Below, piece after piece: positions 7,997 through 41,548 of a DNA stretch of 49,893 nucleotides. The DNA is from a virus: positions 1 through 49,893 of IMG/VR virus record IMGVR_UViG_3300007960_000035. One strand, 5' to 3'. Both the position numbers and the translations under genes were made by a program. The notes below the pieces were generated by a model. It did no database searches and was not told the origin of the DNA. It saw only the letters and a list, made by a program, of their open reading frames with translations. The stretch's first letter is position 1. Each line of letters starts with the position of its first letter.

Positions 7997-8039
7997 TTCG
8001 GCCTTGACCGGCGTCTAGGCGACAGGAGAGGATAAGGCC

Positions 8040-8773: not shown

Positions 8774-9015
8774 CGATCACCGAGAAGGTGCTCGAAAAAG
8801 TGAAGGCCACGCCACCTCGACACAAGACGTGGTTCGACCGGCTCGACGCCTCGCACCAGTCTGAACTCGCGGACATCCGTCGCGGATGGCAGGCCGGCGA
8901 CATCAAGTCTTCGGCTGTCAAACTCGCCAGCCACATCTCGACGACGCTGCGAGAGGACGGCATCTCGACAGTCGGCATTCAGGGGGTCTTGCAGTGGCTC
9001 AGAAACCGCGACTGA
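8755..9015 (+). CDS. Small putative DNA-binding protein, 86 aa
   Basis: The ATG at 8755 is preceded by AAGGAGGAG at ideal spacing and is preferred over ATG 8749. The protein is basic at the N-terminus and helical, with TWFDRLDASHQSELADIRRG followed by a likely helix-turn-helix region (AVKLASHISTTLREDGISTVGIQGVLQWL). Overlaps both neighbours slightly. Possible small regulator or terminase-small-subunit-like protein; assignment is weak. Confidence 0.75.
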   Translation: MPTRRLTITEKVLEKVKATPPRHKTWFDRLDASHQSELADIRRGWQAGDIKSSAVKLASHISTTLREDGISTVGIQGVLQWLRNRD

Positions 9016-10181: not shown

Positions 10182-10732
10182 TCCTCGGAATCGCAGGGGC
10201 CGCCGGCAGCGGCAAGGACACCGTCGGGCAGTATCTCGTCCGCCGGCACGGCGCGGTGATCCACAAATTCGCCGACCCACTATACGCCGCGATCTCGGCG
10301 ATCACGGGGCTCTCGGTGGCCGAACTTCAGGACCGCCGGCGGAAGGAGGAGATTTTGCCGTGGCTGCCTTGCAGCCCGCGGCGACTCCTCCAGACGATCG
10401 GCACCGAGTGGGGCAGGGACACGATCCACCCGGATATCTGGGTGCTGGCGACCCTGCGACGCATCGACGCCACAGACGCCCTGTGGAGCGTTGTGACGGA
10501 CGTTCGCTTCGACAATGAGGCCGAGGCCATCCGCGCCCGCGGTGGCGTCGTGTGGGCCGTGACGCGGCCGTCCGTCGGCGGCCTGGGTGGCGTCGAGTCT
10601 AGGCACTCAAGCGAGGCCGGCGTGTCGGCGGAACTTATTGATGACGAGATATTCAACCACGGCGACATCGCGGCGCTCGAGCGCGAGGTCGACGCTGCAT
10701 GGGCTAGGCTGCAAGCCGATATAATCAGATGA
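10178..10732 (+). CDS. Deoxynucleoside monophosphate kinase-like protein, 184 aa
   Basis: N-terminal P-loop GIAGAAGSGKDT followed by HKFADPLY, as in phage T4 gp1-type dNMP kinases. Later VVTDVRFDNEAEAIR is the characteristic segment of this family. It would phosphorylate dNMPs to dNDPs for phage DNA synthesis. The start ATG overlaps the upstream stop. Length is slightly below T4 gp1, but the core is complete. Confidence 0.88.
   Translation: MILGIAGAAGSGKDTVGQYLVRRHGAVIHKFADPLYAAISAITGLSVAELQDRRRKEEILPWLPCSPRRLLQTIGTEWGRDTIHPDIWVLATLRRIDATDALWSVVTDVRFDNEAEAIRARGGVVWAVTRPSVGGLGGVESRHSSEAGVSAELIDDEIFNHGDIAALEREVDAAWARLQADIIR
10717..10725 (+). promoter_or_regulatory. Putative promoter -10 element CGATATAAT
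   Basis: A perfect TATAAT in the context CGATATAAT, matching the CGATACAAT elements before 11040, 15948 and 34848. Transcription would begin near 10732, giving a short leader that contains GGGAGGGG before the GTG at 10749. No good -35 hexamer is visible, so the motif may depend on another sigma factor or activator. Confidence 0.5.
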
Positions 10733-10748
10733 TGGGAGGGGTGCAGCC

Positions 10749-11000
10749 GTGAGCGAGACATTGAAGACGGTGATGGAGAGGTGGGGATTTCCCACCTTGG
10801 TCGCATTAGCGGCCGGTTACGTGCTTCGCCAGGACGTCCTGCTACCCTTGGTAGACCAGCACTCGGCCTTCTTGAAGACGATCTCCGAGTCCCAGAAGGA
10901 GATCGCCGACGCCGTCAGGGAGCAGACCCGCCTGCTCTACGCCCTTCAGCCGAAGGTGGCCGAAGAGGCACGCCGTCAGGCCGCCCAAGAGGCTCAGTGA
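10749..11000 (+). CDS. Small membrane protein with C-terminal coiled coil, 83 aa (holin-like?)
   Basis: GTG start with GGGAGGGG upstream. One hydrophobic segment at about residues 13-35 (FPTLVALAAGYVLRQDVLLPLV) followed by a charged helix rich in Glu, Gln and Arg. The layout resembles single-span phage membrane proteins, including some holins, but no lysin gene lies next to it, so the role is unknown. Confidence 0.75.
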   Translation: MSETLKTVMERWGFPTLVALAAGYVLRQDVLLPLVDQHSAFLKTISESQKEIADAVREQTRLLYALQPKVAEEARRQAAQEAQ

Positions 11001-11024
11001 CCCCCGCAGCGACAGGCGTCCAAA

Positions 11025-11033
11025 CGATACAAT
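11025..11033 (+). promoter_or_regulatory. Putative -10 element CGATACAAT giving a leaderless mRNA
   Basis: TACAAT ends 6 bases before the ATG at 11040, so standard spacing puts the first transcribed base at the A of the start codon. No Shine-Dalgarno precedes the gene. The same element with the same 6-base gap occurs before 15948, and with an 8-base gap before 34848. Confidence 0.55.
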
Positions 11034-11039
11034 GGACGC

Positions 11040-11360
11040 ATGGCGACTTACTCTCAACTGCCGGGCCAGTTGTCCCTCGCCCTGCGCCGCGGCGACGAAT
11101 TTGGGGCGAATGTCGACTTTGACATCGACCTCACGGGGTACTCGGTCTCCGCCGCGATCGTGTCGGCGTTGACCGGCAATTCGGCCGGGACGATGACCGC
11201 CACCGTCACCAACGCAGGCGCCGGGGTCGTCAACGTCTCGATGACCGAGGCTCAGACAGCCGCGCTGCTGCCAGGCACCTATGCGTGGCGGCTGGAGTGG
11301 ATCGCGCCGGGCGACGTGAAGAGAACCGCGATGGCCGGATTCGTCGAGGTGGCACGATGA
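11040..11360 (+). CDS. Small beta-sandwich tail-module protein, 106 aa (paralogue of the protein at 4306)
   Basis: Shares with the 122-residue protein at 4306: the SQLPGQL start, the DIDLTGY segment, TEAQTAALLPG and a Trp-containing ending followed by VKRTAMAG. It is the second member of a duplicated tail module and overlaps the next gene by ATGA. No ribosome-binding site is visible, in line with a leaderless transcript. Confidence 0.82.
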   Translation: MATYSQLPGQLSLALRRGDEFGANVDFDIDLTGYSVSAAIVSALTGNSAGTMTATVTNAGAGVVNVSMTEAQTAALLPGTYAWRLEWIAPGDVKRTAMAGFVEVAR

Positions 11361-12948: not shown

Positions 12949-15591
12949 ATGACCATCAAGATTAAGCACAAGCGAGGCACGGCTTCTTCGGTGGCGGCTG
13001 CTAACCCAACCCCAGCGGCCGGGGAGCTTGTGTTTGAGACGGACACGCTTCGGTTCAAGTTGGGTGATGGAAGCACGGCGTATAACAGCCTGGCTTACGT
13101 CGCACCGAGTGCCAGCGACATTACGTCCGGCACGCTTGGACAAGACAGGCTTCCAAGCGACATCACGGTAAACAGCCTGTTCCTTTACGACTCACTCAAC
13201 GACCGCGAGATCGAACTGCAACCGTCTGGCCTGAGTGACGACCGGGCGATCATCTTTCCAAACGCCTCTGGCACGGTCGCCCTGGTAGGCCACACCCACT
13301 CCGCCAGCGACATCACGAGCGGCACGCTGGACTCGGCACGCCTCGACGCGACGCTGGCCGCGCTTGCTGGTGTGACCACGTCGGCGGATCAAGTGATCTA
13401 CGCGACAGGCAGCGACACGTTCGCGACTACTGCTCTGTCATCGTTCGGCCGCTCCCTCATTGACGACGCCGACGCCGCAGCGGCGAGGACGACGCTCGGC
13501 GTGCAGCCGACGGCGAGCCCGGCGTTTACGGGCAGCGTTGGAATCGGCACATCCTCGCCCGGCGCACTGCTTGAGGTAAACGGCGGCAGCGGTGCTGCTA
13601 CTTGCATAGTCAAAGGCGAAAGCGGAAAAAATGCGTTCTTGTCTGTGATTGGCAATGGCAACGCCTTCTTGTCCACTTCGCTGGACATCATCCAGCAGAG
13701 CGATAACGCTGCGACTATCATCCAGCGGGCCAATGCCGCGCTGTCACTCTGGACAAACAACACCACCCGCCTCACCATCTCCTCCACCGGCACCGCGACG
13801 TTCGCTGGGCAGATCGTCGGGCAGGCGGGGATGGACGTTACCGGCGCTGCCACCTTCGCCAACACCGGCAACGTCGTCCCGCTTACCGTGACCAACACGG
13901 GCACGGCCAACTCATTCGTCGTCAACGATGCCAGCGGTGATACGACGCCGTTTGTGGTGGATGCGAGTGGGAATGTTGGCGTCGGACTGGGCGGCGCACC
14001 AAATGCTCGCGTGCAGGTCAATCTTGGTGACGTTGCTCCAGCCGCTAGTGGCGACATGAACACTGGCGTAGTATTTCAGAGCAACGGCGCCTCTCGGGCG
14101 ATAAACATCGGCACAGACAACACTGCTGGATACTCATGGATCAACGCAGCGTTCGCAAATAATTCAGGCATCGCAGACAACCTGCACTTGATGACTGGTG
14201 CCACCACCCGCCTCACCATCTCCTCCACCGGCACCGCGACGTTCGCGGGGCAGATTGTGGGGCAGGCGGGGGCGGATATTTCTGGCACAACCGCATTAGG
14301 CGACACAGTCAACTGCGGCACGGCGTCTACGACGGCAACAATCGTCAACGTCGGCCTCGGAGCGACCGGCAATAGATTTGCCCTCATCGACTACGTTGGA
14401 GATACAACCTACACGGACTATGGGCTGAGAGTCGGGCGAGACAATGGAGGCGCAAATGGTCAATCGATCATCCACCACAGAGGCACGGGCGCTCTTGCCA
14501 TAGTCGCTCTTGACGCAGGAACAGTCGAACTCGGAACCAACAGCACCACCCGCCTCACCATCTCCTCCACCGGCACCGCGACTTTCACGGGGCAGATACT
14601 TGCCGACGACATCGCCACCGCCAACAGCGTTGCGTATGGCTTCGATTCGGACCCCAACACCGGAATTGGTCGTGCAGGCGCGGACGTTGTAACGCTGGTG
14701 ACAAACGGAGCCGAGCGGGTGCGGGTGGATGCGAGCGGGAATGTGGGAATTGGGCTGACGCCACTGCAAAAGTTTCATGTCGGTCGATCTGGCAGCGGCA
14801 TTGCAGCGAGATTCACTGACAACGCTACACAAACCCTAGACCTTGGCATCACAGCATCTGCTGGTGTGTACTACGACAACCCAAACAGCGGCTACCAAGA
14901 ATGGCAGATTGGTGGCTCTGGCAAGATGCGGCTTGACGCCAGCGGGAATTTGGGAATTGGGACAACAAACACTGACCCGGCTGGCTCCAATGTGGTCGGT
15001 AGTGCAATTGGCGCGTCTGGCTATTTCAGCATCACACGCGACTCATTCGACCCCGTACGAATCAACCTCAAGAGTGCAGATGGTACGCTTGTTTCGTTTT
15101 TCCAGGACGGAGTCAGCGAGGGGTCGGTCAGCGTTTCGGGTAACACAGTCTCCTACAACGCCTTCTGCGGCTCGCACTGGGCGCAACTCTCCGATCAGTC
15201 TCGGCCCGCGATCCTGCGTGGCACGGTGATGGAGACGATTGACCAGATGTGCGACTGGCCGGAGGACGGCGGCGGCAGTGATCGACTGGTGCGGGTGAAG
15301 GTCAGTGACACGCCAGCATCTCGCCGCGTCTATGGCGTGTTTCTCGGCTGGGATGAGCCCTACGCATCGACCGGCGATATGTACGTCGCTGGTCTTGGTG
15401 CGTACATGGTGCGAGTGTCAGGCGTGGTGCAGTCCGGTGACCTGCTAGAGAGTTCTGGCGACGGCACCGCACGCACGCAGGCAGACGACATCGTCCGCAG
15501 CAGCACCATCGGCAAAGTGTCGTCCACGCATCGCATCGCTGAGTACGACGACGGTTCGTATGTTGTCCCTTGTGTCCTCATGTGCGGGTGA
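12949..15591 (+). CDS. Large tail fibre/tail spike protein with possible autoproteolytic C-terminal domain, 880 aa
   Basis: N-terminus MTIKIKHKRGTASS with GELVFETDT and FKLGDGSTAYNSL is the classical phage fibre head-binding pattern; HTHSASDITSGTLDSARL follows. The middle contains repeated TTRLTISSTGTATFAGQI units and VDASGNVGIG repeats. The final 150 residues (from YNAFCGSHWAQL through GDLLESSGDG) resemble Peptidase_G2-type intramolecular chaperone domains of phage spikes; that assignment is inference. Likely the main receptor-binding protein. Confidence 0.88.
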   Translation: MTIKIKHKRGTASSVAAANPTPAAGELVFETDTLRFKLGDGSTAYNSLAYVAPSASDITSGTLGQDRLPSDITVNSLFLYDSLNDREIELQPSGLSDDRAIIFPNASGTVALVGHTHSASDITSGTLDSARLDATLAALAGVTTSADQVIYATGSDTFATTALSSFGRSLIDDADAAAARTTLGVQPTASPAFTGSVGIGTSSPGALLEVNGGSGAATCIVKGESGKNAFLSVIGNGNAFLSTSLDIIQQSDNAATIIQRANAALSLWTNNTTRLTISSTGTATFAGQIVGQAGMDVTGAATFANTGNVVPLTVTNTGTANSFVVNDASGDTTPFVVDASGNVGVGLGGAPNARVQVNLGDVAPAASGDMNTGVVFQSNGASRAINIGTDNTAGYSWINAAFANNSGIADNLHLMTGATTRLTISSTGTATFAGQIVGQAGADISGTTALGDTVNCGTASTTATIVNVGLGATGNRFALIDYVGDTTYTDYGLRVGRDNGGANGQSIIHHRGTGALAIVALDAGTVELGTNSTTRLTISSTGTATFTGQILADDIATANSVAYGFDSDPNTGIGRAGADVVTLVTNGAERVRVDASGNVGIGLTPLQKFHVGRSGSGIAARFTDNATQTLDLGITASAGVYYDNPNSGYQEWQIGGSGKMRLDASGNLGIGTTNTDPAGSNVVGSAIGASGYFSITRDSFDPVRINLKSADGTLVSFFQDGVSEGSVSVSGNTVSYNAFCGSHWAQLSDQSRPAILRGTVMETIDQMCDWPEDGGGSDRLVRVKVSDTPASRRVYGVFLGWDEPYASTGDMYVAGLGAYMVRVSGVVQSGDLLESSGDGTARTQADDIVRSSTIGKVSSTHRIAEYDDGSYVVPCVLMCG
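13761..13830 (+). repeat. Fibre-gene DNA repeat (TTRLTISSTGTATFAGQI), copy 1
   Basis: About 70 bases nearly identical to 14202-14271 and 14544-14600. Encodes the TTRLTISSTGTATF strand-turn unit. The near identity at silent positions suggests recent duplication or gene conversion. Confidence 0.85.
14202..14271 (+). repeat. Fibre-gene DNA repeat, copy 2
   Basis: Second copy of the element at 13761, with few substitutions. Confidence 0.85.
14544..14600 (+). repeat. Fibre-gene DNA repeat, copy 3
   Basis: Third, shorter copy; identity ends after the ATF(T)GQI codons. Confidence 0.8.
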
Positions 15592-15947: not shown

Positions 15948-16928
15948 ATGAAGACAGCACTCATCACGGGCATCACCGGCCAGGACGGCTCCTATCTGGC
16001 CGAACTTTTGCTCGCCAAGGGGTACGACGTCCACGGCGTCGTCAGGCGGTCGAGCACGTTTGGGACGCAGCGGATCGAGCACATCTTCGATCGCGTTACG
16101 CTGCACTACGGCGACGTGACCGACGGCGGCGCCTTGATGCGAATCGTCGGGGAGGTCGACCCAGACGAAATCTACAACCTCGCCGCCCAGAGCCACGTCC
16201 GCGTGTCTTTCGATCAGCCGGCCTACACGGCCGACGCGGTCGCAATCGGCACGCTCAACGTGCTCGAGGCGGCCAGGACGGTGCCGTTCTGCCGCGTCTA
16301 CCAGGCGTCGTCGAGCGAGCAGTACGGCAACGCATCGGCTGAACCGCAAAACGAGACAACGCCATTTCGTCCGCGGTCCCCATACGGCTGCGCCAAGGTC
16401 TTCGCCCACCATCTGGCGGTGAACTACCGCGAGTCCTACGGCCTTCACGCCTCCTGCGGCATCCTCTTCAACCACGAGAGCCCACGGCGCGGCGAGACGT
16501 TCGTGACCCGCAAGATCACCCGTGCTGTTGGCCGCATCAAGCACGGCCTGCAAGAGAAACTGTTCCTCGGCAACCTCGACGCCATGCGCGACTGGGGCTA
16601 CGCCGGCGACTACGTCGAGGCCATGTGGCTCATGCTCCAGCAGGACGAGCCGGACGACTACGTCATCGCCACCGGCAAGGCGCAGACCGTCCGCGAGTTC
16701 TGCGAGGCAGCGTTCGCCGCGGCCGGCATGGACTACCGAGACCACGTCGAGACCGACCCACGCTACTACCGACCGGCCGAGGTGGACTTCCTCCTCGGCG
16801 ACGCCTTGAAGGCTTCGCGCGTCCTCGGCTGGCAGCCGGCCACGAAGCCGGAGGAGTTGGTCGGCATGATGGTCGAGGCCGACATCGAACTTGCGAGGCA
16901 GGAGTATGTCGTTGCTCAGTCTCGCTGA
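15948..16928 (+). CDS. gmd: GDP-mannose 4,6-dehydratase, 326 aa
   Basis: Converts GDP-D-mannose to GDP-4-keto-6-deoxy-D-mannose. Extended SDR with NADP-binding [12 protein letters not shown] (8-19), active-site SSSE (121-124; the catalytic Thr of E. coli Gmd is Ser here), Y146-x3-K150 (YGCAK) and the diagnostic [11 protein letters not shown] (175-185). Length is a little shorter than E. coli Gmd. It overlaps the GDP-fucose synthase gene by 23 bases, so the two are made together. The product is also the substrate of a perosamine-synthase-type enzyme such as the DegT protein at 35138. Confidence 0.96.
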
Positions 16929-17838
16929 CTGCCGGGTGCTGGTCACCGGCGGCGCAGGCTTCCTCGGCCGCGTCGTCTGCCGCCTGCTCAAGGATCGAGG
17001 CTGCACTCAGGTCACGGTCCCGCGTCGGGCAGTCTGCGACCTCACCGACCCACGGTCGACGGCCAGGCTGTTCGCCGCCTGCCAGCCGGACGTCGTCTTG
17101 CACCTGGCCGCGGAGGTCGGCGGCATCGGCGCCAACATGAAAGCGCCGGGGAGGTTCACCTACGCCAACCTCGCCATGGGCCTGAACGTCATCGAGGCAG
17201 CGAGGCTTCACGGCTGCCGCAAAACCGTCGTCGTCGGCACCGTCTGCTCCTACCCGCTGTCTCCGCCGGTGCCGTTTAAGGAGGAAGACCTCTGGAGCGG
17301 CTACCCGGAGCCAACCAATGCCGGCTACGGGATCGCGAAAAGGGCGGTGTACGAACTGCTCAAGCAGTACCAAAAACAGTACACCATGGCCGGCGCCGTC
17401 GTGATCCCGACGAACCTCTACGGCCCCGGCGACAACTTCGACCCGGCGTCCAGCCACGTCATTCCCGCGATGATCCGGCGGTTCTGCGGAGCCGGCGACG
17501 TCACGCTCTGGGGGAGCGGAACTGCCAGCCGTGAGTTCCTCCACGTCGCCGATGCGGCCGAAGGGATTCTCATGGCCGCCGAACGCATCGAAACGCCGGA
17601 GCCGATCAACCTCGGCGGTGGCGGCGAGGTGTCGATGCGAGACTTGGCCGAACTGATCGCCGGCGAGTGCGAGTACCACGGCACGATCCGCTGGGACTCC
17701 TCGAAGCCGGACGGCCAACCTCGTCGGGCCGTCGACGCCTCGAGAGCGAAAGAGCTTCTCGACTGGCAGCCGCAGGTGAATCTGAAGCAAGGAATCGCCG
17801 AGACGGTCGCGTGGTGGCGGTCACAGGCTACGTCTTGA
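16906..17838 (+). CDS. fcl: GDP-L-fucose synthase (epimerase/reductase), 310 aa
   Basis: Makes GDP-L-fucose from the Gmd product. NADP-binding GGAGFLG (15-21), then C114, Y141, K145 and H184, which match E. coli Fcl C109, Y136, K140 and H179 with a constant offset of five; catalytic Ser107 is replaced by Thr112. [11 protein letters not shown] is the family signature. ATG 16906 is preferred over an upstream TTG. The 3' end overlaps the convergent gene at 17828 by 11 bases. Confidence 0.95.
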
Positions 17839-28648: not shown

Positions 28649-28831
28649 ATGCTCGTGATCACGCGGAAGGATCGGCAGTCGATCAAGATCGGGCCTGACA
28701 TCCTGGTCACCGTCTGGCGGACAGACGAGGGCAGGATTCGAGTCGGCATCGACGCGCCGAGGGATTTGGCGATTCATCGCGCCGAATCGTCGGCCAAGCC
28801 TCACGCCAAGGAGGAGGCGACCAGTGGTTGA
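28649..28831 (+). CDS. csrA: CsrA-family RNA-binding translational regulator, 60 aa
   Basis: Starts MLVITRKDRQSIKIGPDI and continues RVGIDAPRDLAIHRAE, matching CsrA along its length; the RNA-contact residues R6 and R44 of E. coli CsrA are conserved at the same positions. CsrA dimers bind GGA motifs in mRNA hairpins and block ribosome binding. AAAGGAG precedes the ATG and sits in a hairpin loop. A phage-borne copy could reprogramme host mRNAs or control phage genes. Confidence 0.95.
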   Translation: MLVITRKDRQSIKIGPDILVTVWRTDEGRIRVGIDAPRDLAIHRAESSAKPHAKEEATSG

Positions 28832-29177: not shown

Positions 29178-29915
29178 ATGAAGGCTGCTGCTGCATTCAT
29201 CGCGTCGATTGCTCCGGCTCTGGCCGGCACGATCGACGACTCGCTGCCCGACTCGGTCTACCTCGCCTACGGGCAGCAGTTCGCTCCGTTCACCCGTCGC
29301 GTCGAGGTCGTCGGCGTCGACGGCAAACTGGCGATCGGCAGCGGCTGCGTGATCGGCGACAGGTGGGTGCTGACAGCGGCGCACGTCGTCGACAACGCCG
29401 TGACGATCTCGGTCAGCGGCAACCCGGTCGTCACCTACTGGCAGCATCAAGACTGGGAGAGCGACCGCGTCGGATACAACGACATCGCGGCTCTCTACTG
29501 CAAGGCCGACTTCAGCCTCGACTACTACCCGCCATTGGCGACAAGCGGAGACACCGTCGGTGCCACGGTGACGCTGGCCGGCTACGGAGTCACCGGCCGC
29601 ATGGCCGGAGGCTACACGCGATCCGACGGGCTCCTGCGGGCCGGCACGAACACGATCGCGGGGCTTGAGCGGACGCTGATCGTCTGCGGGATCAACTCTG
29701 GCTCGAGCCCGAGGGAGTACGGAATCGCCCCCGGAGACTCCGGCGGGCCGCTGTTCGTCGGCGCCGGCTCCGAGGCCCGCCTGGCGGGCATCCACTCCTT
29801 CACGATGCGCGCCGGCACCGGCCCTCTGCGGAGCCGCAACGGTGAGGAGAGCGCTCACACGAGGGTGTCGCTGTTTGTCAGGTGGATCGATCGTGTCAGG
29901 GGGATGGTGCGGTGA
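29178..29915 (+). CDS. Secreted trypsin-like (S1 chymotrypsin-fold) serine protease, 245 aa
   Basis: N-terminal signal peptide-like MKAAAAFIASIAPALAG. The catalytic triad is complete: H69 in WVLTAAHVV, D102 in YNDIAALYC and S188 in APGDSGGPLF, with the expected oxyanion glycines. Length is typical of S1 enzymes. The protein should be exported, so it may act in the periplasm or outside. Such proteases are rare in phages; host-derived capture is likely. The stop overlaps the DNA methyltransferase start (GTGA). Confidence 0.92.
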   Translation: MKAAAAFIASIAPALAGTIDDSLPDSVYLAYGQQFAPFTRRVEVVGVDGKLAIGSGCVIGDRWVLTAAHVVDNAVTISVSGNPVVTYWQHQDWESDRVGYNDIAALYCKADFSLDYYPPLATSGDTVGATVTLAGYGVTGRMAGGYTRSDGLLRAGTNTIAGLERTLIVCGINSGSSPREYGIAPGDSGGPLFVGAGSEARLAGIHSFTMRAGTGPLRSRNGEESAHTRVSLFVRWIDRVRGMVR

Positions 29916-33965: not shown

Positions 33966-34117
33966 TGGCGAAGAAGAAGTATTCCCAAGGCACGACGCAA
34001 AAGTCGGTCTCGAAGAACATCTCCAAGCTGGTCGACGAGGGCTACCCGCAGAAGCAAGCCGTCGCCATCGCCCTGGACATCGCGAATCAGGCGAAGAAGA
34101 AAAAGGGCGACAAGTGA
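33965..34117 (+). CDS. Small basic conserved phage protein, 50 aa
   Basis: MAKKKYSQGTTQKSVSKNIS, then KLVDEGYPQKQAVAIALDIA and a Lys-rich end. The SKNI.KL..EGYPQKQAVAIAL core is a recurrent small phage motif of unknown role, perhaps nucleic-acid binding given the charge. TGATG coupling with the upstream gene. Confidence 0.75.
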   Translation: MAKKKYSQGTTQKSVSKNISKLVDEGYPQKQAVAIALDIANQAKKKKGDK

Positions 34118-34476
34118 CGCACCGGCGGGCGAGGAAATCGCCACTGATTGTGGTCGACGTTTCCCTGCTCGAGCAGTGCTGGCAGTCGGAGATGACCGGC
34201 GAGCAGATCGCCGGCGTCATCGGCGTGAAGAAGTGGCAGTTGCCGACGATCCGCGAGGAAGCCGGCCTGCCGAAGCGCCCCTCGTTCAAGTCCTACCTGC
34301 GGCCGTGGGACTCGAAAAAGCGACCCAAGGAGCCGGACCCCGAGGTCTCGCCGGAGGAGGTGCAGCACCGGATCGCGAAGGTGCAGGCCAGATGGACAGA
34401 CGAGGTTTTTGTGTTGAGGTCTCTGGGCCGCGTGCGGCCTGTCCCGTATGAGTTTCCGAGGTATTCGATCCAGTGA
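34114..34476 (+). CDS. Small HTH-like protein, 120 aa (paralogue family member 1)
   Basis: GTG 34114 overlaps the upstream stop. EQIAGVIGVKKWQLPTIREE is a helix-turn-helix-like segment. The C-terminal motif SPEEVQHRIAKVQARWTDE resembles those of the proteins at 34473 and 37857 (I...C..vqa.WS.aEre.R). Likely a DNA-binding regulator; target unknown. Confidence 0.75.
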   Translation: MTHRRARKSPLIVVDVSLLEQCWQSEMTGEQIAGVIGVKKWQLPTIREEAGLPKRPSFKSYLRPWDSKKRPKEPDPEVSPEEVQHRIAKVQARWTDEVFVLRSLGRVRPVPYEFPRYSIQ

Positions 34477-34814
34477 CTGGTGTTCCGCTCGACGAGGATT
34501 TCTTGAGGTTTGCGTGGTCACGGTATCCGCTCTCCTACATCTGTGAGATGGCGAACTGCGGCCGGCGCAAGGTCTACTACTACGCCAGGAAGTTCGGTCT
34601 CGGCCCCAAGCCGGAAGGCACGTATCTGCCCCGCCGTGGCCGGAAGATGCCAGACCCGACCCCTGACCAAATACGTCAACGGTGCCTGGAGGTGCAGGCC
34701 CGGTGGTCCCCAGCGGAGCGCGAGCGGCGGGCCGGGCGGAGCAAACTGTCGGCTGCCGCCAAGGCGATGGGCTACGACGGCCGGAGCGTCCGATTCTCGG
34801 AGAGATTGCTGTAG
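34473..34814 (+). CDS. Small HTH-like protein, 113 aa (paralogue family member 2)
   Basis: GTG 34473 overlaps the preceding stop. HTH-like ICEMANCGRRKVYYYARKFG, then TPDQIRQRCLEVQARWSPAE and ERRAGRSKLSAAAKAMG. Shares its C-terminal motif with the proteins at 34114 and 37857. Possible transcription regulator. Confidence 0.76.
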   Translation: MTGVPLDEDFLRFAWSRYPLSYICEMANCGRRKVYYYARKFGLGPKPEGTYLPRRGRKMPDPTPDQIRQRCLEVQARWSPAERERRAGRSKLSAAAKAMGYDGRSVRFSERLL

Positions 34815-34847: not shown

Positions 34848-35141
34848 ATGCGACGCCAACCGCTCGAGCGGACGATCGTCGCCAAGGTCATGGCGCAGGC
34901 TCGGAGCCTCGGCTGGTGGGTTATGAAGACCCACGGCGGCTCCTATGGAACCGTTGTCGGCCTGCCTGACGTGCTGGCAATCAAGGACGGCCGGGCAGCG
35001 TGGATGGAAGTGAAGCGGCCGGGGTTTGAGCCGACCCGCGTGCAACTCCATCGTCAGCGCGAACTCAGCGGCTACGGATGCCCGGTGACGACCGTGACCA
35101 GCGCCGCCGACGCTCGGCATTTTCTGGAGAGCATCGGGTGA
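34848..35141 (+). CDS. VRR-NUC domain nuclease, 97 aa
   Basis: PLERTIVAKVMAQARSLGWW, then GTVVGLPDVLAIKDGRAAWMEVK: G-x-PD and E-V-K give the PD-(D/E)XK catalytic residues of VRR-NUC proteins, which act on branched DNA like small Holliday-junction resolvases. Length is typical of the stand-alone phage version. It overlaps the aminotransferase gene by GTGA, an unexpected partner. Confidence 0.9.
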   Translation: MRRQPLERTIVAKVMAQARSLGWWVMKTHGGSYGTVVGLPDVLAIKDGRAAWMEVKRPGFEPTRVQLHRQRELSGYGCPVTTVTSAADARHFLESIG

Positions 35142-36223
35142 GCAAAGACATCTCCTTCGGCGCTGCGGTCGTCGGCGACGCCGAGGTGGCGGCGGTGCGC
35201 CGCGTCTTGGAATCCGGCCGGCTGACCCGCGGGCCTGTGTGCGAGGAGATGGAGGCGGACCTCGCCAGGCTCACCGGCCTCGAGGCGCACGTCGTCTCCA
35301 GCGGCACCGCGGCGATGCATCTGGCCCTGCTGGCCGCCGGCGTGCAGCCCGGCGACCGCGTGATCGTGCCGGCCACGACCTACGTGGCGACCCTCAACGC
35401 GGTGCTCTACTGCGGCGCCGAGCCGGTGCTGGTCGACGTCTGCCCGGCGACGTGGACGATCGACTTCGACGAGGCCGTTGAGGAGGCCGAGAGCCGGCAG
35501 GCCGCGGCGATCGTCCCCGTTCATCTCTACGGCGTTCCTGCCCCTTCGTTTCACGGGTGGCGGGAAGATTATTTCCGCCGCACCGGCCGGCTGGTGCGAA
35601 TCGTCGAGGACGCCGCCGAGAGCCTCGGGTGCCTGCGATCAGGCCGGCACCCGTGCGGAGACCTGGCCGCGCTCTCGTTCTTCGGCTCCAAGACGATCAC
35701 GACAGGCGAAGGCGGCGCGGTGCTGTGGCGCGACCCCACGCTCGGTGCCCGCGTCCGGCATCTGGCTGGACAGGCGATGACGAAGCAGAGGTATCGCCAC
35801 GACACCGTCGGCTTCAACTACCGGATGACGGAACTTCAGGCGGCCATCGGCGTCGAGCAACTCAAGAAGCTGCCGGCTCTCCTCGACGCCCGCCGCCATG
35901 TGTTCGCCTGGTACGACGAGTTTCTGCCTGCCGGGTGGCGACGACAGGACATCGACAGAAACGACACGCACGGCCTGTGGGCCTACGCAGCGACGAACAA
36001 CGAACTCGACGCCAGAAGGGTCATCCACGGCATGGCTCAGGCCGGCATCGAGTGTCGTCCGATCTTTCCGCCTCTGGGCCGGCACAACCACGCCGAGAGG
36101 TTTGCGGCGTACACGCCGCTGGCGGACTTTCTGCACGACCGCGGCATCGTTCTTCCCACGCACCCGCTCCTGACCAGAGACGACGTCAGTCGCGTGTGCG
36201 AAACCCTGGCGGAGTGGAAATGA
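35138..36223 (+). CDS. DegT/DnrJ/EryC1 aminotransferase, probable GDP-perosamine synthase type, 361 aa
   Basis: PLP-dependent sugar aminotransferase. GTG 35138 overlaps the nuclease stop. SGTAAMHLALLAAGV, VEDAAESLG (D158) and SFFGSKTITTGEGG with PLP lysine K185 are present; the last motif is characteristic of perosamine synthases of the RfbE/Per group. It would aminate GDP-4-keto-6-deoxymannose, the product of the phage Gmd at 15948. Two glycosyltransferases follow without gaps. Other 4-keto-sugar substrates cannot be excluded. Confidence 0.92.
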   Translation: MSKDISFGAAVVGDAEVAAVRRVLESGRLTRGPVCEEMEADLARLTGLEAHVVSSGTAAMHLALLAAGVQPGDRVIVPATTYVATLNAVLYCGAEPVLVDVCPATWTIDFDEAVEEAESRQAAAIVPVHLYGVPAPSFHGWREDYFRRTGRLVRIVEDAAESLGCLRSGRHPCGDLAALSFFGSKTITTGEGGAVLWRDPTLGARVRHLAGQAMTKQRYRHDTVGFNYRMTELQAAIGVEQLKKLPALLDARRHVFAWYDEFLPAGWRRQDIDRNDTHGLWAYAATNNELDARRVIHGMAQAGIECRPIFPPLGRHNHAERFAAYTPLADFLHDRGIVLPTHPLLTRDDVSRVCETLAEWK

Positions 36224-36993
36224 AGATCGTCGGCGTTTCCATGTTCATGGCCGACTGCGGCAAGCACTTGCAGCGCCGCCTCGAGCACCTCGTGTCCAAG
36301 CGCGGCGTGTCGGCGTGGGTGTGGATCGTCCGTCGAACCAACGATGTCACCGACCGGCTTCTGCACGCCTTCGTCGACTCCTCGCCGGTGCCGGCGATGG
36401 TGATCGAGGAGTCGTGGCCGCAGCCGGCCGACAGGCTCATGGCGGTGTCGATGGCCGGTGACGTCGCCATGAACGCCGCGCTGATGCGAGGCGCCGAGAG
36501 GATTCTGTTCCACGAGAGTGATCTGATCTCGCCGGAGGACGTGGCCCTGCGGCTGGGCGAGGTTCTGGATTCCTCGCCGGCGGCGGCCGTCGCCGGCGGG
36601 TGGCCGTGCCTGGCGAGCGAGGGGATGGACGAGTCGCTGATGCTCTTCGACGGCGCCGCCCGCCTGGGCCGCGAGATGCAGATCGCCTTCGACGGCCAGC
36701 CAGCGGCACTGCCGTTCTTCTATGACTCGTGGGGGTATCGGCTCGACGGCCAGCGGTTCGCGTCTGTGCCTCCGTACTCGCCGTGCTATCGGCCCGACGA
36801 GCCGTTTCGGCTGGATTCCGTCGGAAGCGTCGCGCTCATCGACGCGAGGTGGCTGCGATACGGCGCACGCATGGAACACGACGGGTTCGTGAGGCTCTGC
36901 GACCAGATACGCCAGATGGAAGGAGAAGTGTGGTGCGACCCGAGGATCATCATCAATCAGCCGCTCGAACTATGGACGTTCCAGAACAACTGA
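36220..36993 (+). CDS. Glycosyltransferase-like protein, 257 aa
   Basis: ATGA overlap with the aminotransferase gene. MKIVGVSMFMADCGKHLQRR start, then AWVWIVRR and RILFHESDLISPEDV, a D-x-D-like nucleotide-sugar site around residue 99, followed by AVAGGWPCL. Layout is a GT-A type enzyme. It is likely to transfer the aminosugar made next door. Confidence 0.76.
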   Translation: MKIVGVSMFMADCGKHLQRRLEHLVSKRGVSAWVWIVRRTNDVTDRLLHAFVDSSPVPAMVIEESWPQPADRLMAVSMAGDVAMNAALMRGAERILFHESDLISPEDVALRLGEVLDSSPAAAVAGGWPCLASEGMDESLMLFDGAARLGREMQIAFDGQPAALPFFYDSWGYRLDGQRFASVPPYSPCYRPDEPFRLDSVGSVALIDARWLRYGARMEHDGFVRLCDQIRQMEGEVWCDPRIIINQPLELWTFQNN

Positions 36994-37853
36994 TCCGGCC
37001 AGAGGACTGGTGGCCTGTCGATCCGCACTGGCAGGAGCGGTACGACCGCATGGTCGGCATCGGCCGCCGGACGGCCGCTCAACTCGACGCCTGCGTCGTG
37101 ATGATCTGCCGCAACTCGATGCCACACCTCGCCAACACGATTGGCCTGCTCCGCGAGTTGTCGCTCGGCTTCAGGTCGATGTCGATCTACGTCCACGAGA
37201 ACGACTCGACCGACGGCACCGGGGAGTTCCTCGACGTCGTGGCGGACGAGAGCTTCTCGATGACTGTCTGCCACGAGACCCTCGGCGGCATCGACGCCCG
37301 TGGGTTTGGTCGCGAGCGGACGGAGCGGCTGGCCTACTGTCGCAACAAGTGCCTGGGGTGGGTCTCGGAGAACGCCTCCCGCACCGCGTGGACGATCGTG
37401 CTCGACTCCGACGCCCACGGCGGGTGGAGCGTCGACGGCGTCTTCAACAGCATCGGGTGCCTGGGCAGCCACAACACCCGGCCGGACTCCTTCCCTGCCG
37501 GCGGCATGGCCTCCTACGGCGTCTATAGACCTCGCCGGCTCGTACCCGAGGCCGCCGGCATCGGCGAGCACGGCATCCTTCAGTACGACGCCTGGGCCGC
37601 CCGGCTCAACGACTGGCGCGACCGCCGCGAGGAGGTTGGGTTCAACTGGTTTTTCTGTCTCCTACCGCCCGTCGGCTCGCCGCCGATTGAGTTCCTGTCG
37701 GCCTTCGGTGGCCTTGCGGTCTACCGTACCGATGCCTTCCTGGCCGGCGGCTACACCGGCGACGACTGCGAGCACGTCGGCCACCACAGAAACATGCGCG
37801 CCGCCGGCTACTCGATGCACTTGAACCCAGGATGCCGCTACGTCGCGTATTGA
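36972..37853 (+). CDS. Glycosyltransferase, CAP59/GT69-like, 293 aa
   Basis: ATG 36972 overlaps the previous gene by 22 bases. CVVMICRNSMPHLANTIGLL, IYVHENDSTDGTGEFLD, RLAYCRNKCLG and TIVLDSDAHGGWS (D-x-D) form the GT-A core seen in CAP59-type alpha-mannosyltransferases. Ends with NPGCRYVAY. Together with the aminotransferase and the previous gene it forms a glycan cassette. Confidence 0.82.
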   Translation: MDVPEQLIRPEDWWPVDPHWQERYDRMVGIGRRTAAQLDACVVMICRNSMPHLANTIGLLRELSLGFRSMSIYVHENDSTDGTGEFLDVVADESFSMTVCHETLGGIDARGFGRERTERLAYCRNKCLGWVSENASRTAWTIVLDSDAHGGWSVDGVFNSIGCLGSHNTRPDSFPAGGMASYGVYRPRRLVPEAAGIGEHGILQYDAWAARLNDWRDRREEVGFNWFFCLLPPVGSPPIEFLSAFGGLAVYRTDAFLAGGYTGDDCEHVGHHRNMRAAGYSMHLNPGCRYVAY

Positions 37854-37856
37854 TCC

Positions 37857-38261
37857 ATGTCGTCGAAGCGACTGACCGAAGGCGAGTTGGCGGCCAGCCG
37901 GGAGCGTTCGACGCTGCGGCGGCGTCTGCGCCTGCTGTGGCGCGGAGACTCGACGGACGATGAGATTCGCGAGGAGTTGGCCCTCGGGGAAGATGAGTTT
38001 CGCGCGATCGTCGCTGAGATGGGGCTGCCGGAGAGGTCGAGGGATATCTATCTGCCTGACCCGGCGACGATTCGGCGAGAGTGCGCGATCATCCGCTCCA
38101 AGTGGTCGCAGGCGGAGCGTGAATCACGCCTCGAGGCGGCCTGGTCTGCTAGAATAGACAATGCAGCATCGACGAGGGGGCGGACCAATGCTTCAAGTGG
38201 TGCTCACACTGACTCCCAAGCGGGCCAGGCTGCTGATCAAACGCGGCGACGAGATCGTTGA
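37857..38261 (+). CDS. Small HTH-like protein, 134 aa (paralogue family member 3), possibly frameshifted end
   Basis: MSSKRLTEGELAASRERSTL, a helix-turn-helix-like DDEIREELALGEDEFRAIV and PDPATIRRECAIIRSKWSQAERESR, related to the proteins at 34114 and 34473. The last 35 residues (ASTRGRTNASSGAHTDSQAG) are low-complexity and overlap the promoter and start of the next gene, so the true end may have been near 38155 and later lost its stop. Confidence 0.72.
   Translation: MSSKRLTEGELAASRERSTLRRRLRLLWRGDSTDDEIREELALGEDEFRAIVAEMGLPERSRDIYLPDPATIRRECAIIRSKWSQAERESRLEAAWSARIDNAASTRGRTNASSGAHTDSQAGQAADQTRRRDR
38150..38155 (+). promoter_or_regulatory. Putative extended -10 element TGC-TAGAAT
   Basis: TAGAAT (5 of 6 to TATAAT) with a TG one base upstream, i.e. 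an extended -10. Start would be near 38162, giving about 26 bases of leader with GAGGGGG before the ATG at 38188. Confidence 0.45.
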
Positions 38262-38379: not shown

Positions 38380-38560
38380 CGACATCGAGGTTTCCGAGTT
38401 CGAGGCTCGCGGTGGCGACGACTCGCCTCCGCTGGTCAACAAGGTGGCCGACCCGCCGCCGGCGGGCTGGGGAAAACTCACCGGCACGGCGAGGACGCTG
38501 TCTCCGGCATATCTGCGATTCTTAAGCAAGGGCATGGAGGCTGACGGTGGACATCGATGA
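38366..38560 (+). CDS. Hypothetical protein, 64 aa
   Basis: Overlaps neighbours by 14 bases on both sides. MDRPNDIEVSEFEARGGDDS and a Pro-rich centre (ADPPPAGWGK), no strong ribosome-binding site. The dense overlap pattern supports reality but confidence is moderate. Confidence 0.55.
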   Translation: MDRPNDIEVSEFEARGGDDSPPLVNKVADPPPAGWGKLTGTARTLSPAYLRFLSKGMEADGGHR

Positions 38561-38843
38561 CGACGAAGAACTGTACGGCGCCGGCTTCCCGTTGCTGGAG
38601 AAGTTGAAACTCCTCGCCGAGTGGGCTCCGCTCATTTCGCAGTTGCAGGCCATCGGCGCGGCGAAGACGCCGCACGATCAAGCCGTCGCGCTCGTGCGGA
38701 CGCTCCAGTGGGCCGCCGGCAAGAGCATGAACACCATCGACGACGAGGCGCTCGAGCACGTCGAGGCGGTGCTGGCGACGCCGGAGGGCAAGGCGGCCTT
38801 TGAGTGGGCCTACAGCAAGATCAGCGGCGGAGAACAGGCATGA
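38547..38843 (+). CDS. Hypothetical protein, 98 aa
   Basis: GTG 38547. Acidic N-terminus (DIDDDEELYGAGF) then helices with PLISQLQAIGAAKTPHDQAV and ALEHVEAVLATPEGKAAFEW. Possibly a small structural or assembly protein as it is followed by membrane proteins. No family recognised. Overlaps the next gene by ATGA. Confidence 0.74.
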   Translation: MDIDDDEELYGAGFPLLEKLKLLAEWAPLISQLQAIGAAKTPHDQAVALVRTLQWAAGKSMNTIDDEALEHVEAVLATPEGKAAFEWAYSKISGGEQA

Positions 38844-39112
38844 CGGCGAGTCAGATCATCGCGATTGCGGCGGCGTTCGCCGTCGCCTTCTGGCCCCAGA
38901 TTTACGCAGCCGCCGAAACGGCGATCGGCTGGGCGTTCTCCGATGACGGAGATCATCCGCCGGCGAAGTTGCTGGGACCGACATACAAGGAAGCGATCAG
39001 TGCCTTGGCGAGCGTTCGCCTCCGGCTTCGCTCCACGAATTGTCTCGACGACGACCGCAAGAAGGCGATCGACGTCCTGACGCTTGGCCTCGTGGACGGA
39101 TCAGACCAATGA
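38840..39112 (+). CDS. Membrane-anchored hypothetical protein, 90 aa
   Basis: ATGA start. Hydrophobic N-terminal segment (SQIIAIAAAFAVAFWPQIYAA) acting as a signal anchor, then a soluble part with KEAISALASVRLRLRSTN. The next gene overlaps by ATGA. Function unknown; part of a run of envelope-type proteins with the cysteine peptidase. Confidence 0.74.
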   Translation: MTASQIIAIAAAFAVAFWPQIYAAAETAIGWAFSDDGDHPPAKLLGPTYKEAISALASVRLRLRSTNCLDDDRKKAIDVLTLGLVDGSDQ

Positions 39113-39597
39113 GCAGCCCGTGGGTGAGGCTCGTCGTGGCCGCCGTGATCCTTGTTTTTGCCTGGCGCGGGTCGATCCTCGACGTGTCTTGGCCTCCGTC
39201 GCCAGCGGAAGTCATCGACGGGCCGGCGCCTGACAAGAGGCTCCTGGCGTGGGCCGAACCGCTGCGGCCGATCGTCGGAAAGATGCTGCCTTCCGACAGG
39301 GAGTACCTGGCAAACTTCTACGACGCGATGAGTTTCGTGATTCTTCGCGATGGCAAGCGCGATGACCCGATCGTGTCGACGACGGAGAAGTTCGCGACGT
39401 TTCATGCAGGGTCGCTGCGACTGGCGATCGACAAGGAAAACGTCGGGAAGTACCCCGGCCTCGCTGCCGCCATCGACGAGGTCTTTATGAGGGCCGGCGG
39501 CCCCGAGGTGAAGTCGATCGACACCGACACCAGAGATGCGCTGGTGGCTGCCTGCCAGGTGCTGTCTTGGACATTCTCGATCCATCGCGATGAGTGA
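39109..39597 (+). CDS. Membrane-anchored hypothetical protein, 162 aa
   Basis: ATGA start. N-terminal signal anchor VRLVVAAVILVFAW, then a mainly helical soluble domain (DKRLLAWAEPLRPIVGKMLP and onwards). No catalytic motif seen. Precedes the peptidase gene with an 8-base overlap. Confidence 0.74.
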   Translation: MSSPWVRLVVAAVILVFAWRGSILDVSWPPSPAEVIDGPAPDKRLLAWAEPLRPIVGKMLPSDREYLANFYDAMSFVILRDGKRDDPIVSTTEKFATFHAGSLRLAIDKENVGKYPGLAAAIDEVFMRAGGPEVKSIDTDTRDALVAACQVLSWTFSIHRDE

Positions 39598-40594
39598 ATT
39601 CAACCCGCTCCTCGAGTACGACCGCGGCTTGCGGGGGGCGACACTCGACCCTCGCGAGGACGAACTCCTCGTCGACTCGATCCTTCGGCATGGCGGAGAC
39701 CCCGATGGCGACCACGTCGCGCATCACTGGGACTTCGCTGATTCGGCGAAAGGCAAACTGGTCCCACGCTGGGAGAACGTCATGCGGGAGTGGCCCGGCT
39801 GCTGGCCCGGTCCGCCGCAATCGAGAGGCGACTGCGTTTCACACGCCATCCTTCGGGCCGCGCTGTTGTCGTGGACTTGCGAGATTCAGGACGGCCGCCC
39901 CGACGAAGTCACCGGCAAGATCGAGGGGAAGCCCGAGGTCTCCGACGTCGGCATCCGAAACAGCGTTCTCTCGAGCGAGGCGATCTACTGGCATCGCGGC
40001 CACAATGGCGATGGGTGGACGTGCAGTTCCGCAGCCCGCGCCATCACGACCGACGCCGGCATCTGGCTGAGACAGAACTACCCCGAGATCGGCATCGACC
40101 TGACGCGATACAACGGCACCATCGCCGGCCGCTGGGGTGCTCGGAAGCCGCCGGAGGAAGTGATCGCGATCGGCCGTGAGCACCTCGTCCGCACGGCGAC
40201 GGTGGTCAAGAGCGTCGAGGCGATGCGCGACCTGCTCTACCAGGGCTACGGCGTCTTCTTCTGCTCAATGCTCAAGTGGTCGAGCACCCGCGATGACAAC
40301 GGCTACTCGCCGGTCGTCGTTGGATCGTGGGCTCATGCCCAAGGGATCGTCGGTTACGACGATCGCCCTGAGACGGTGAGCATCTACGGGGAGCCACTGG
40401 CCTGCGTTCAGAACTCCTGGGGCCGATGGAACTCAGGCCCGCGAACCGTCCGCGGGACGAACTTCGAGATTCCAGAGGGCGCCTACTGGACGAAGGCGTC
40501 GACGATCCTGCGAGGGCAGGCGATTGCACTGTCGAGCGTGGCCGGCTGGCCGGCGAGGAAGCTGCCGAACTACGGTGCGGAGGGAAATGTATGA
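39590..40594 (+). CDS. Papain-like (C1-type) cysteine peptidase, 335 aa minus stop (334 aa)
   Basis: QSRGDCVSHAILRA (Q77, C82), SWAHAQGIVGYDD (H249) and CVQNSWGRWN (N275) form the Cys-His-Asn catalytic set and the oxyanion Gln of papain-fold enzymes. No signal peptide, so it acts in the cytoplasm or virion. The 80-residue N-terminal part could be a pro-region. A papain-like enzyme in phages may process virion proteins or cleave host targets; substrate unknown. Confidence 0.85.
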   Translation: MSEFNPLLEYDRGLRGATLDPREDELLVDSILRHGGDPDGDHVAHHWDFADSAKGKLVPRWENVMREWPGCWPGPPQSRGDCVSHAILRAALLSWTCEIQDGRPDEVTGKIEGKPEVSDVGIRNSVLSSEAIYWHRGHNGDGWTCSSAARAITTDAGIWLRQNYPEIGIDLTRYNGTIAGRWGARKPPEEVIAIGREHLVRTATVVKSVEAMRDLLYQGYGVFFCSMLKWSSTRDDNGYSPVVVGSWAHAQGIVGYDDRPETVSIYGEPLACVQNSWGRWNSGPRTVRGTNFEIPEGAYWTKASTILRGQAIALSSVAGWPARKLPNYGAEGNV

Positions 40595-40962
40595 AGCCCG
40601 ACGTCGTCGCTGACGCCACCGGCGTCATCCTGCTTGCCACCGTGGCCGCGCTGCCGATGTCGTGCGTCCCATCGCTGCCGGCGGCCCAGAGGGTGAACCT
40701 TCAGCCGCTGGTTGCCACGGCCGGGGCATACAGCGTCATGGAAGGCGAGCGCTCGAGCCCGACGCCTGCTCCCGTTCCCACGGTCGGGTGCGAGGAAGGA
40801 TGCGAATGCAACGGCAGCGGCAAGGAGCCCAGCGGCGACGGCCTGGCGATCGTCAATTGCCGCTGCCCAGAGACCTGCGCCTGCAAGGCGAACAAGGCGC
40901 CGCCGGCCCACACGTCTGCCGAGGGGACGCCGGGATGGCCGCCACGAAATTTAGTCCCCTGA
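40591..40962 (+). CDS. Cysteine-rich putative secreted protein, 123 aa
   Basis: ATGA start. Hydrophobic N-terminus (GVILLATVAALPMSC) ending in Cys, a possible but non-canonical lipobox. The C-terminal part has CEEGCECNGSGKE and CRCPETCACK, a dense metal-binding or disulfide pattern seen in small phage proteins with CxxxCxCxGxG. Function unknown. Confidence 0.72.
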   Translation: MKPDVVADATGVILLATVAALPMSCVPSLPAAQRVNLQPLVATAGAYSVMEGERSSPTPAPVPTVGCEEGCECNGSGKEPSGDGLAIVNCRCPETCACKANKAPPAHTSAEGTPGWPPRNLVP

Positions 40963-41246
40963 AAGCCTGGGTGCTCCGGCGGGCGCCGATGCGCGTTTCG
41001 CTGCACGGGGCTCTTCGCGATCGGCTCGTCGAGCACATCGTCGAGGACTGGCCGGCCGGCTGCCCGCCAGACCGCATCGAGGAGGTCGTCCGCGCTCGCA
41101 TGGCCGTCAGGCTCCGCGAGCAGTACGGAAGCGTCATTGCGGTGTTCATCCTGTCTGCCCTCGCGAACATCCTGATCCGCCTGGTCGTCGAGTGGTGGTT
41201 TGCCCACGAGGCCAACCGCGTCCTCATGGCCGAATGGTCTCGCTGA
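40935..41246 (+). CDS. Membrane protein, 103 aa (holin-like candidate)
   Basis: ATG 40935 with GAGGGG upstream. Basic N-terminal half and one hydrophobic span near the C-terminus (SVIAVFILSALANILIRLVV), ending HEANRVLMAEWSR. Could be a single-span holin or spanin-type protein; no endolysin is adjacent. TGATG coupling with the HNH gene. Confidence 0.7.
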   Translation: MAATKFSPLKAWVLRRAPMRVSLHGALRDRLVEHIVEDWPAGCPPDRIEEVVRARMAVRLREQYGSVIAVFILSALANILIRLVVEWWFAHEANRVLMAEWSR

Positions 41247-41548
41247 TGCCTCGTCGCGTTCCCACCTACCGGCCACCTTGGATTCCCGCTCGTCAAGAGA
41301 ACCGCCCCACGTCCTCCCAGAGGGGCTACGGGTCGGCAGCCTGGCAGCGTGTCCGTCTGGCCGTGATCGCCCGCGACGGCGGCGTCTGCCGCTCCTGCGG
41401 GCTCGTCATCCACAAGGCCGGCGACGCCCACGTCGATCACATCCTCGAGAAGCCGACCGACGAGGCCGCCGAGGCGACGCCGCTTTCCGGCCTCCAGCTT
41501 CTGTGCCGATCCTGTCACGCGAAGAAGACGAAGGCGTCATCCTCCTGA
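41246..41548 (+). CDS. HNH homing-type endonuclease, 100 aa
   Basis: RDGGVCRSCGLVIHKAGDAH followed by VDHILEKPTDE and LQLLCRSCHAKK gives the HNH/ zinc-bound ββα-metal pattern with two CxxC pairs. Short stand-alone HNH proteins usually sit next to phage terminase genes, where they cooperate in packaging; no terminase is in this window. Its end overlaps a convergent gene by 12 bases. Confidence 0.9.
   Translation: MPRRVPTYRPPWIPARQENRPTSSQRGYGSAAWQRVRLAVIARDGGVCRSCGLVIHKAGDAHVDHILEKPTDEAAEATPLSGLQLLCRSCHAKKTKASSS

Follow-up and report, generated by a model that had tools for sequence, protein, structure and literature searches.

What role can a papain-like cysteine peptidase play in a virus in which its gene lies among genes for membrane-anchored proteins? 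This question is raised by the linear viral record G000 (IMGVR_UViG_3300007960_000035), the full 49,893 bases of which are referred to here as the window; all coordinates given without a locus name are window positions. The peptidase, called PAP below, is encoded in a tight run of plus-strand genes identified by our own gene calls (Table 1), past which the genes are on the opposite strand. Since the genes of this run share one strand and overlap by a few bases, the cluster looks like a single operon. Sequence comparisons and structural models indicate that the cluster is genuine and conserved among phages, that it is organized around a papain-like protease, and that it has apparently not been described before. 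The role we favor, with a probability of about 50%, is that of a lysis (particle-release) module of phages infecting Planctomycetota, in which a papain-type protease would take the usual place of the endolysin.

The initial annotation of this DNA had pointed to a Cys-His-Asn set in the 334-residue protein. All three residues (Cys82, His249, and Asn275) are present, along with the oxyanion residue Gln77, and the four are unchanged in alignments of 4, 50, and 33 more diverse sequences. The 50-sequence alignment (A2) contains 23 invariant columns, including Q77, C82, H249, and N275, and relatives with identities as low as 22% retain the Gln-Cys-His-Asn set, which is far beyond chance. The 11 copies read in planctomycete chromosomes (see below) all keep Gln, Cys, and His, and Asn is replaced by Gln in three of them. 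The AlphaFold2 model based on the 50 rows of A2 reached a mean pLDDT of 90.9 and a pTM of 0.91, an earlier model from four sequences (pLDDT 42) having been discarded. Compared using VIA-align, the model matches xylellain (3ois_A) with a Z score of 20.4 and a root-mean-square deviation of 2.8 over 230 residues, and papain (1ppn) with a Z score of 16.1; Foldseek concurs with a papain-type fold (best E 2e-8). The papain-like structure that the initial annotation had suggested looking for was therefore the one obtained.

PAP shares with peptidase family C1 (papain, cathepsins, xylellain) the Gln-Cys-His-Asn set, the NSWG-type motif and the overall fold, but its identity with these enzymes is only 12–18% over the matches listed. 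The window protein has no match in Pfam, and hence does not reach the cut-off of PF00112 (Peptidase_C1), which is matched weakly by 8 of the 50 relatives (best E 0.0039). No convincing fit of the family was found in PHROG, and a single-sequence search yielded no credible match in the PDB and nothing in 50,697 phage records (INPHARED). Since the PF00112 cut-off is not reached, PAP was classed as C1-like by its fold and kept outside the Pfam family: it is C1-like in fold and residues, yet its family lies outside the Pfam and PHROG libraries, and proteolysis is its predicted activity. Among viral protein models, the best Foldseek matches include phage proteins labelled Peptidase C1 and others with lysin-like names. 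Two of those labelled Peptidase C1, the papain-like BFVD entries A0A6J5TCZ4 and A0A6J5QDM8 from uncultured tailed phages, resemble PAP in fold and phage origin, but their identity with it is 14–15% and the likeness is known from protein models. Between the window PAP and that of locus L007, the nonsynonymous (dN) and synonymous (dS) divergences are 0.217 and 0.982. In L050 (record G020), a second, longer papain-like open reading frame (588 aa) was observed at 5219–6331, about 3 kb past the PAP of the module itself.

Hundreds of viral contigs carry PAP relatives, and nearly all those examined also encode an anchored helical protein (c1N) and an exported Cys-rich protein. The first search of viral contigs gave four relatives, the alignment of which then yielded 399 of 481 candidate stretches, and the best 80 were kept; 5 of 35 candidates were kept from genome contigs. 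Genes were called and clustered in the resulting 86 loci (80 viral, 5 genomic, and the window). PAP was called in 85 of them, and a cluster mixing c1N with the Cys-rich protein was present in 83, the two having been grouped together because fusions of both exist, as in L049 and L052. The c1N gene adjoins that of PAP in nearly all the relatives. Its product is anchored and contains a domain of about 130 aa which is not obviously a coiled coil (alignment A3), and the versions from the siphovirus-like and large-phage groups form one family (hhalign 99.8%, E 1.9e-29). The linkage proposed in the initial annotation therefore extends across many phages, and its description of the neighbors was correct in part: PAP was said to lie between three proteins with N-terminal anchors and a Cys-rich protein, and the two genes upstream do encode anchored proteins, but the third of the set is the Cys-rich protein itself, and the hydrophobic segment of the next product (40935–41246) is internal.

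Gene calls placed the motif of the Cys-rich partner near 53 of 77 distinct PAPs, and raw frame translation placed it near 17 of the remaining 24. Variants of the motif were seen by eye in L021, L025, L027, L034, and L110; L043 and L044 yielded none. Of the 53 partners, 12 fit a strict lipobox pattern; many of those recovered later also look lipoprotein-like by eye, the site in the window protein is imperfect, and the c1N-Cys-rich fusions of L048, L049, and L052 have a plain N-terminal anchor without a lipobox. A thioredoxin domain is fused to the Cys-rich protein or adjoins it in L069, L074, and L043 (Pfam E 4.5e-12, 5.3e-10, and 1e-8, respectively) and also accompanies it in L385 (E 1.3e-7) and L389 (E 1.9e-10); a pattern search detected such domains in 6 of 68 distinct modules. 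The remaining members are more variable. Cluster c3 is a conserved upstream neighbor within the siphovirus-type group, and the slot of c32 is filled in other phages by other small anchored proteins. The idea that the small anchored proteins beside PAP form one family was dropped, since profile comparison supports only the pair c20 and c16 (95.9%); no significant profile match was obtained for c32 and c47 against the other small anchored clusters, or for c4 against c2. As the small membrane proteins differ between groups, the core of the module is claimed here for PAP, c1N and the Cys-rich protein alone. Anchored coiled-coil proteins with a PAS domain were observed next to the module in L069 (7161–7781, PF13426, E 5.3e-4) and L046 (5069–5611, by eye); that they might sense lysis timing is a guess.

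The module occurs in unrelated phage backbones. In one set of phages, the HNH endonuclease gene after the module leads on to terminase-, portal-, protease-, and capsid-like genes (c27, c38, c45, and c59, by eye), and wherever the head module is on the contig, the order is module, in some cases LamG-like genes, HNH, terminase, portal, protease, and capsid (late genes by eye). The other set carries genes resembling those for ribonucleotide reductase, PhoH, RecA, and ClpP (by eye). PAP was found in 13 of 80 loci scanned with the terminase of the first set as bait and in 24 of 80 scanned with the RecA-like protein of the second, absences saying little because many of these loci start close to the bait gene. 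Most of the PAPs reached via terminase are far more distant (22–28% identity with the window protein in eight aligned cases) and are accompanied by the same kinds of partners. One locus, L136, has 5.7 kb before its terminase gene without any PAP, and no lysis gene was recognized there by eye, its proteins not having been run against a family library. Among 31 further larger records from the two scans, profile A7 detected PAP in 27, including all nine records of at least 90 kb; the four records without it are contigs of 39–65 kb.

The hosts were approached by searching bacterial genomes with A7. Out of 392 Planctomycetota genomes, 16 gave matches at E ≤1e-3 and 14 below 1e-10, one of the latter being the seed. 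Among 395 Bacteroidota, only the seed matched strongly (nine others fell between 9e-7 and 1e-3), and among 400 Chloroflexota the seed was the only match. Strong matches, seeds excluded, thus amount to 13/391, 0/394, and 0/399, respectively. These figures point to Planctomycetota as hosts, which forms part of the joint claim to which the above probability applies; the assignment is based on these three phyla, and the large-phage group has no host assignment. Matches in metagenome-assembled genomes had suggested other hosts (Lokiarchaeota, SAR202, and Flavobacteriales bins), the last two of which are not supported by their phyla, and these bins may contain misbinned phage contigs. The SAR202 bin (G081) was observed to carry two different copies of PAP (C7:38323–39228 and C13:15887–16762), the 399 other Chloroflexota genomes having none; these are probably two phage contigs in the bin.

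Eleven planctomycete loci were read with their flanks, the genes being identified by eye except where Pfam is cited. The module lies directly before the terminase gene in L384, L385, and L394 (by eye in the latter), and in L391 and L392 the PAP gene has head genes on one side and tail genes on the other. L387 and L388 look phage-like, L389 has phage-like genes some kilobases away, and L390 has the module among ordinary host genes. In L386, a complete-looking module (8027–11182, with PAP, c1N and a thioredoxin-like partner) adjoins a shortened terminase gene and then a patatin-like gene: here the module has outlived the phage structural genes.

Loci L384 (with L406) and L385 (with L404 and L403) come from different planctomycete genomes which share a phage-derived element of about 25–26 kb each. 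In L385/L404, it extends from small genes ahead of the module to those for the terminase (PF03237), portal (PF05136), capsid (PF25209), tail tube (PF18906) and LamG (PF13385) proteins. The host genes on both flanks correspond between the two genomes, and no tRNA gene was found next to the element. Between L384 and L385, dN and dS are 0.126 and 1.009 for PAP and 0.098 and 1.228 for the terminase, and two host flank genes have dN/dS values of 0.194/1.175 and 0.215/1.376: PAP and the element are under purifying selection. The shared locus and this selection fit a functional cluster that is passed down vertically, as gene transfer agents are, which makes the element a candidate agent of this kind. 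Like RcGTA-like agents, it is a phage structural cluster kept at one chromosomal place under purifying selection, and its candidacy is based on synteny and selection. To our knowledge, no gene transfer agent has been proven in Planctomycetota. A predicted prophage with a related TerL is mentioned for the planctomycete Zavarzinella formosa in PMC7947584.

Several lines of evidence argue for lysis. The module is located before the terminase gene, where many phages keep their lysis genes. A small cassette protein of one relative (L052:9996–10172) matches three PHROG holin families (best E 4.1e-5), and in another relative a PF04226 protein falls just below its cut-off. PAP behaves like a core gene, being present in most of the further records and in all the largest ones, and the module recurs with quite different backbones, as lysis modules do. 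The purifying selection on PAP and the link with planctomycete hosts point the same way, as does the fact that the usual endolysins were not detected: PF00959 and PF01510 were each found in 0/48 PAP-bearing phage records, and PF13539, PF01464, and PF05257 each in 0/36, and no peptidoglycan hydrolase was recognized among the 30 window proteins scanned or among 25 proteins of the L385 element, in which a scan with all of Pfam identified terminase, portal, capsid, tail tube, LamG, and thioredoxin, among others. Compared with the lambda-type holin-endolysin-spanin cassette, the module has a similar position before the packaging genes, small membrane proteins and an anchored plus a lipoprotein-like protein, but it contains a C1-type protease with Cys-rich and thioredoxin parts, and no peptidoglycan hydrolase was found. 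Because the five endolysin families searched were not found, we say that the module would work like a standard cassette, not that it is one.

Other points weigh against lysis. The activity of PAP is a prediction from its sequence and model, its nearest folds are C1 proteases, and we know of no C1 enzyme which cuts peptidoglycan. The hydrolase scan across records covered five families and left out amidase 3, M23, NlpC/P60, GH19, GH25, and GH108; its sole matched baseline is weak, PF00959 exceeding the cut-off in 3 of 29 random viral contigs (at least 20 kb, picked by one pattern). The similarity to holins concerns a single relative, and the small window proteins have none in Pfam or PHROG. The window PAP shows no signal peptide by eye, L390 has the module among ordinary host genes, and in L391 and L392 the PAP gene is flanked by head genes and tail genes. 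Finally, a passage in PMC4432640 indicates that planctomycete peptidoglycan is attacked by lysozyme, so that a normal endolysin would be expected to work.

If the module does serve in lysis, small membrane proteins in or near it may act late in infection as holins or anchors. PAP would then reach the periplasm, let out by these proteins or carried by its own N-terminal anchor, such as those present in L164 and L384–L386, and might cut there a protein of the envelope or its peptide component. The c1N protein may hold PAP, from the periplasmic side provided that its N-terminal segment serves as a simple anchor; that some phages have it fused to the Cys-rich domain suggests a joint action of the two. 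Along with the Cys-rich protein, sometimes fused to thioredoxin, it might hold PAP, assist it or keep the active-site thiol reduced; the Cys-rich and thioredoxin parts could maintain the catalytic Cys in the reduced state in an oxidizing periplasm or open disulfides of wall proteins. A more far-reaching and rather doubtful version of this scheme is that phages and phage-derived clusters leave planctomycetes by papain-type digestion of an envelope protein layer, replacing or preceding the attack on peptidoglycan, the exported partner opening disulfide bonds or keeping the protease reduced.

Lysis is the leading reading, superinfection exclusion, its chief competitor, and the role of an ordinary endolysin ranking next. 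In the former case, the anchored protease would cut or remodel host surface proteins and thereby exclude superinfecting phages, or alter the envelope of the lysogen. Every constant partner is membrane-bound or exported, the window lineage has an integrase, and the module is retained in chromosomes, with L390 having it among host genes and L386 beside a truncated phage remnant, which would all suit this role; PAP is a core gene, however, also in large phages showing no visible sign of lysogeny, it sits in the lysis slot, and these phages would be left without any detected lysis enzyme. We regard this explanation as unlikely. It is similarly improbable that PAP is an ordinary endolysin with a papain fold cutting peptidoglycan peptides, helped by the Cys-rich and anchored proteins as an unusual spanin pair. 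The papain fold in its wider sense extends to CHAP endolysins (PMC10318531), some Foldseek phage matches are labelled N-acetylmuramidase fragment, peptidoglycan-binding-like or, weakly, Lysin A, and the Cys-rich partner is often lipoprotein-like. PAP nevertheless has C1 proteases as its nearest solved folds. CHAP and NlpC/P60 endolysins resemble it in the wider fold and a possible lysis role, but no CHAP domain (PF05257) was matched in the window protein or in the 36 PAP-bearing records, and neither fold is among the top structural matches, which does not exclude them. The length of the c1N domain, its lack of an obvious coiled coil and the fusions without a lipobox do not suit a spanin pair.

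The initial annotation had also envisaged host takeover and virion maturation beside lysis, the function which the evidence favors among the three, as a prediction. Papain-like proteases serve in takeover and counter-defence elsewhere, and the absence of a visible signal peptide in the window PAP would be compatible with the degradation of host or defence proteins inside infected cells. This role is nonetheless very doubtful given the anchored or exported constant partners and the PAPs of L164 and L384–L386, which carry an anchor of their own, and it does not fit the conservation of PAP within a phage-derived chromosomal element. There is as little reason to expect that PAP processes head or tail proteins, or is carried within the particle to open the envelope on infection: in L391 and L392 its gene separates the head genes from the tail genes, and elsewhere it is near packaging genes, but the siphovirus-type relatives appear by eye to have a head protease of their own (c45, between portal and capsid), and transmembrane partners and lipoproteins are unusual in virions.

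Table 1. Genes of the PAP cluster and a further single-anchor protein gene in the window.
Feature	Position	Strand	Details
Small soluble protein, 98 aa, cluster c3	38547..38843	+	37 loci, about -1.36 kb from PAP
Small N-terminally anchored protein, 90 aa, cluster c32	38840..39112	+	14 loci, offset about -1.1 kb
c1N, N-terminally anchored helical protein, 162 aa	39109..39597	+	Anchor hydropathy 2.08 at residue 8
Papain-like cysteine peptidase (PAP), 334 aa	39590..40594	+	Gln77, Cys82, His249, Asn275
Exported Cys-rich protein, 123 aa	40591..40962	+	Motif CxCxGxG..GDG..CxC; N-terminal hydropathy 1.93
Internal-transmembrane-segment protein, 103 aa, cluster c4	40935..41246	+	Hydropathy 2.60 at residue 67; 35 loci, about 0.94 kb 3' of PAP
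HNH endonuclease, last plus-strand gene here	41246..41548	+	PF01844 E 8.2e-8; PHROG 144 E 7.4e-20
Single-anchor coiled-coil protein, 83 aa, cluster c17	10749..11000	+	21 loci, median offset +1.2 kb

When the 10 proteins around PAP were scanned against Pfam and PHROG, HNH gave the only credible match; the next best was a weak match of the c3 protein with PHROG 402 (E 0.0034), which has no known function. Relatives of the c17 protein are encoded directly downstream of the module in other phages. We take this protein to resemble holins, and a relative gave no match in Pfam. The record also encodes CsrA, Prim-Pol, UvrD, a trypsin-like peptidase that looks secreted, and an integrase (PF00589, E 1.2e-9), so that a temperate lineage is probable. 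Pfam scans of 30 window proteins recognized neither a terminase nor a capsid gene, and the record is therefore likely to be incomplete.

Other genes of the window were observed alongside these. The CsrA homolog is located at 28649–28831 (PF02599, E 1e-17), and a CsrA-like gene is also present near the module in L388. The second protease of this phage, the trypsin-like serine peptidase, is encoded at 29178–29915 and has a signal-like N terminus (PF00089, E 1.1e-15). In an 880-aa protein (12949–15591), the major tropism determinant N-terminal domain was identified (PF18454, E 2e-12); no reverse transcriptase was noticed. Small neighboring proteins of cluster c6, with a DNA-binding appearance, are encoded at 34114–34476, 34473–34814, and 37857–38261 (the third by eye), and this cluster has 57 copies across 32 loci. 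Sugar-modifying genes at 15948–17838 and 35138–37853 comprise two epimerase-like genes (by eye), a DegT aminotransferase gene (PF01041, E 3.9e-82) and a glycosyltransferase-like gene, for which phage glycosylation of the surface or the DNA is a suggested reading.

The statement in the initial annotation that such a unit had not been described so far holds for Pfam, PHROGs, the INPHARED phage records and the papers which could be searched: nothing was found in that literature, outside which most subscription papers lie, on a lysis gene of the papain type, on how phages lyse planctomycetes, or on the cluster described here. The long-standing description of planctomycetes as having a protein wall free of peptidoglycan (PMC2754498) was followed by the demonstration of peptidoglycan in them (PMC4432640). 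If exit by protein digestion proved true, these phages would have a lysis mechanism unlike that based on holin, endolysin, and spanin, and a protein layer would carry load in planctomycete walls. A conserved module combining a protease with redox proteins would give a direct handle on what holds the planctomycete wall together, and a tool to open the cells. The PAP profile separates Planctomycetota from Bacteroidota and Chloroflexota and could, as a host marker, help to assign uncultured viral contigs, while the cluster of about 25 kb shared by two planctomycete chromosomes provides a candidate gene transfer agent for that phylum.

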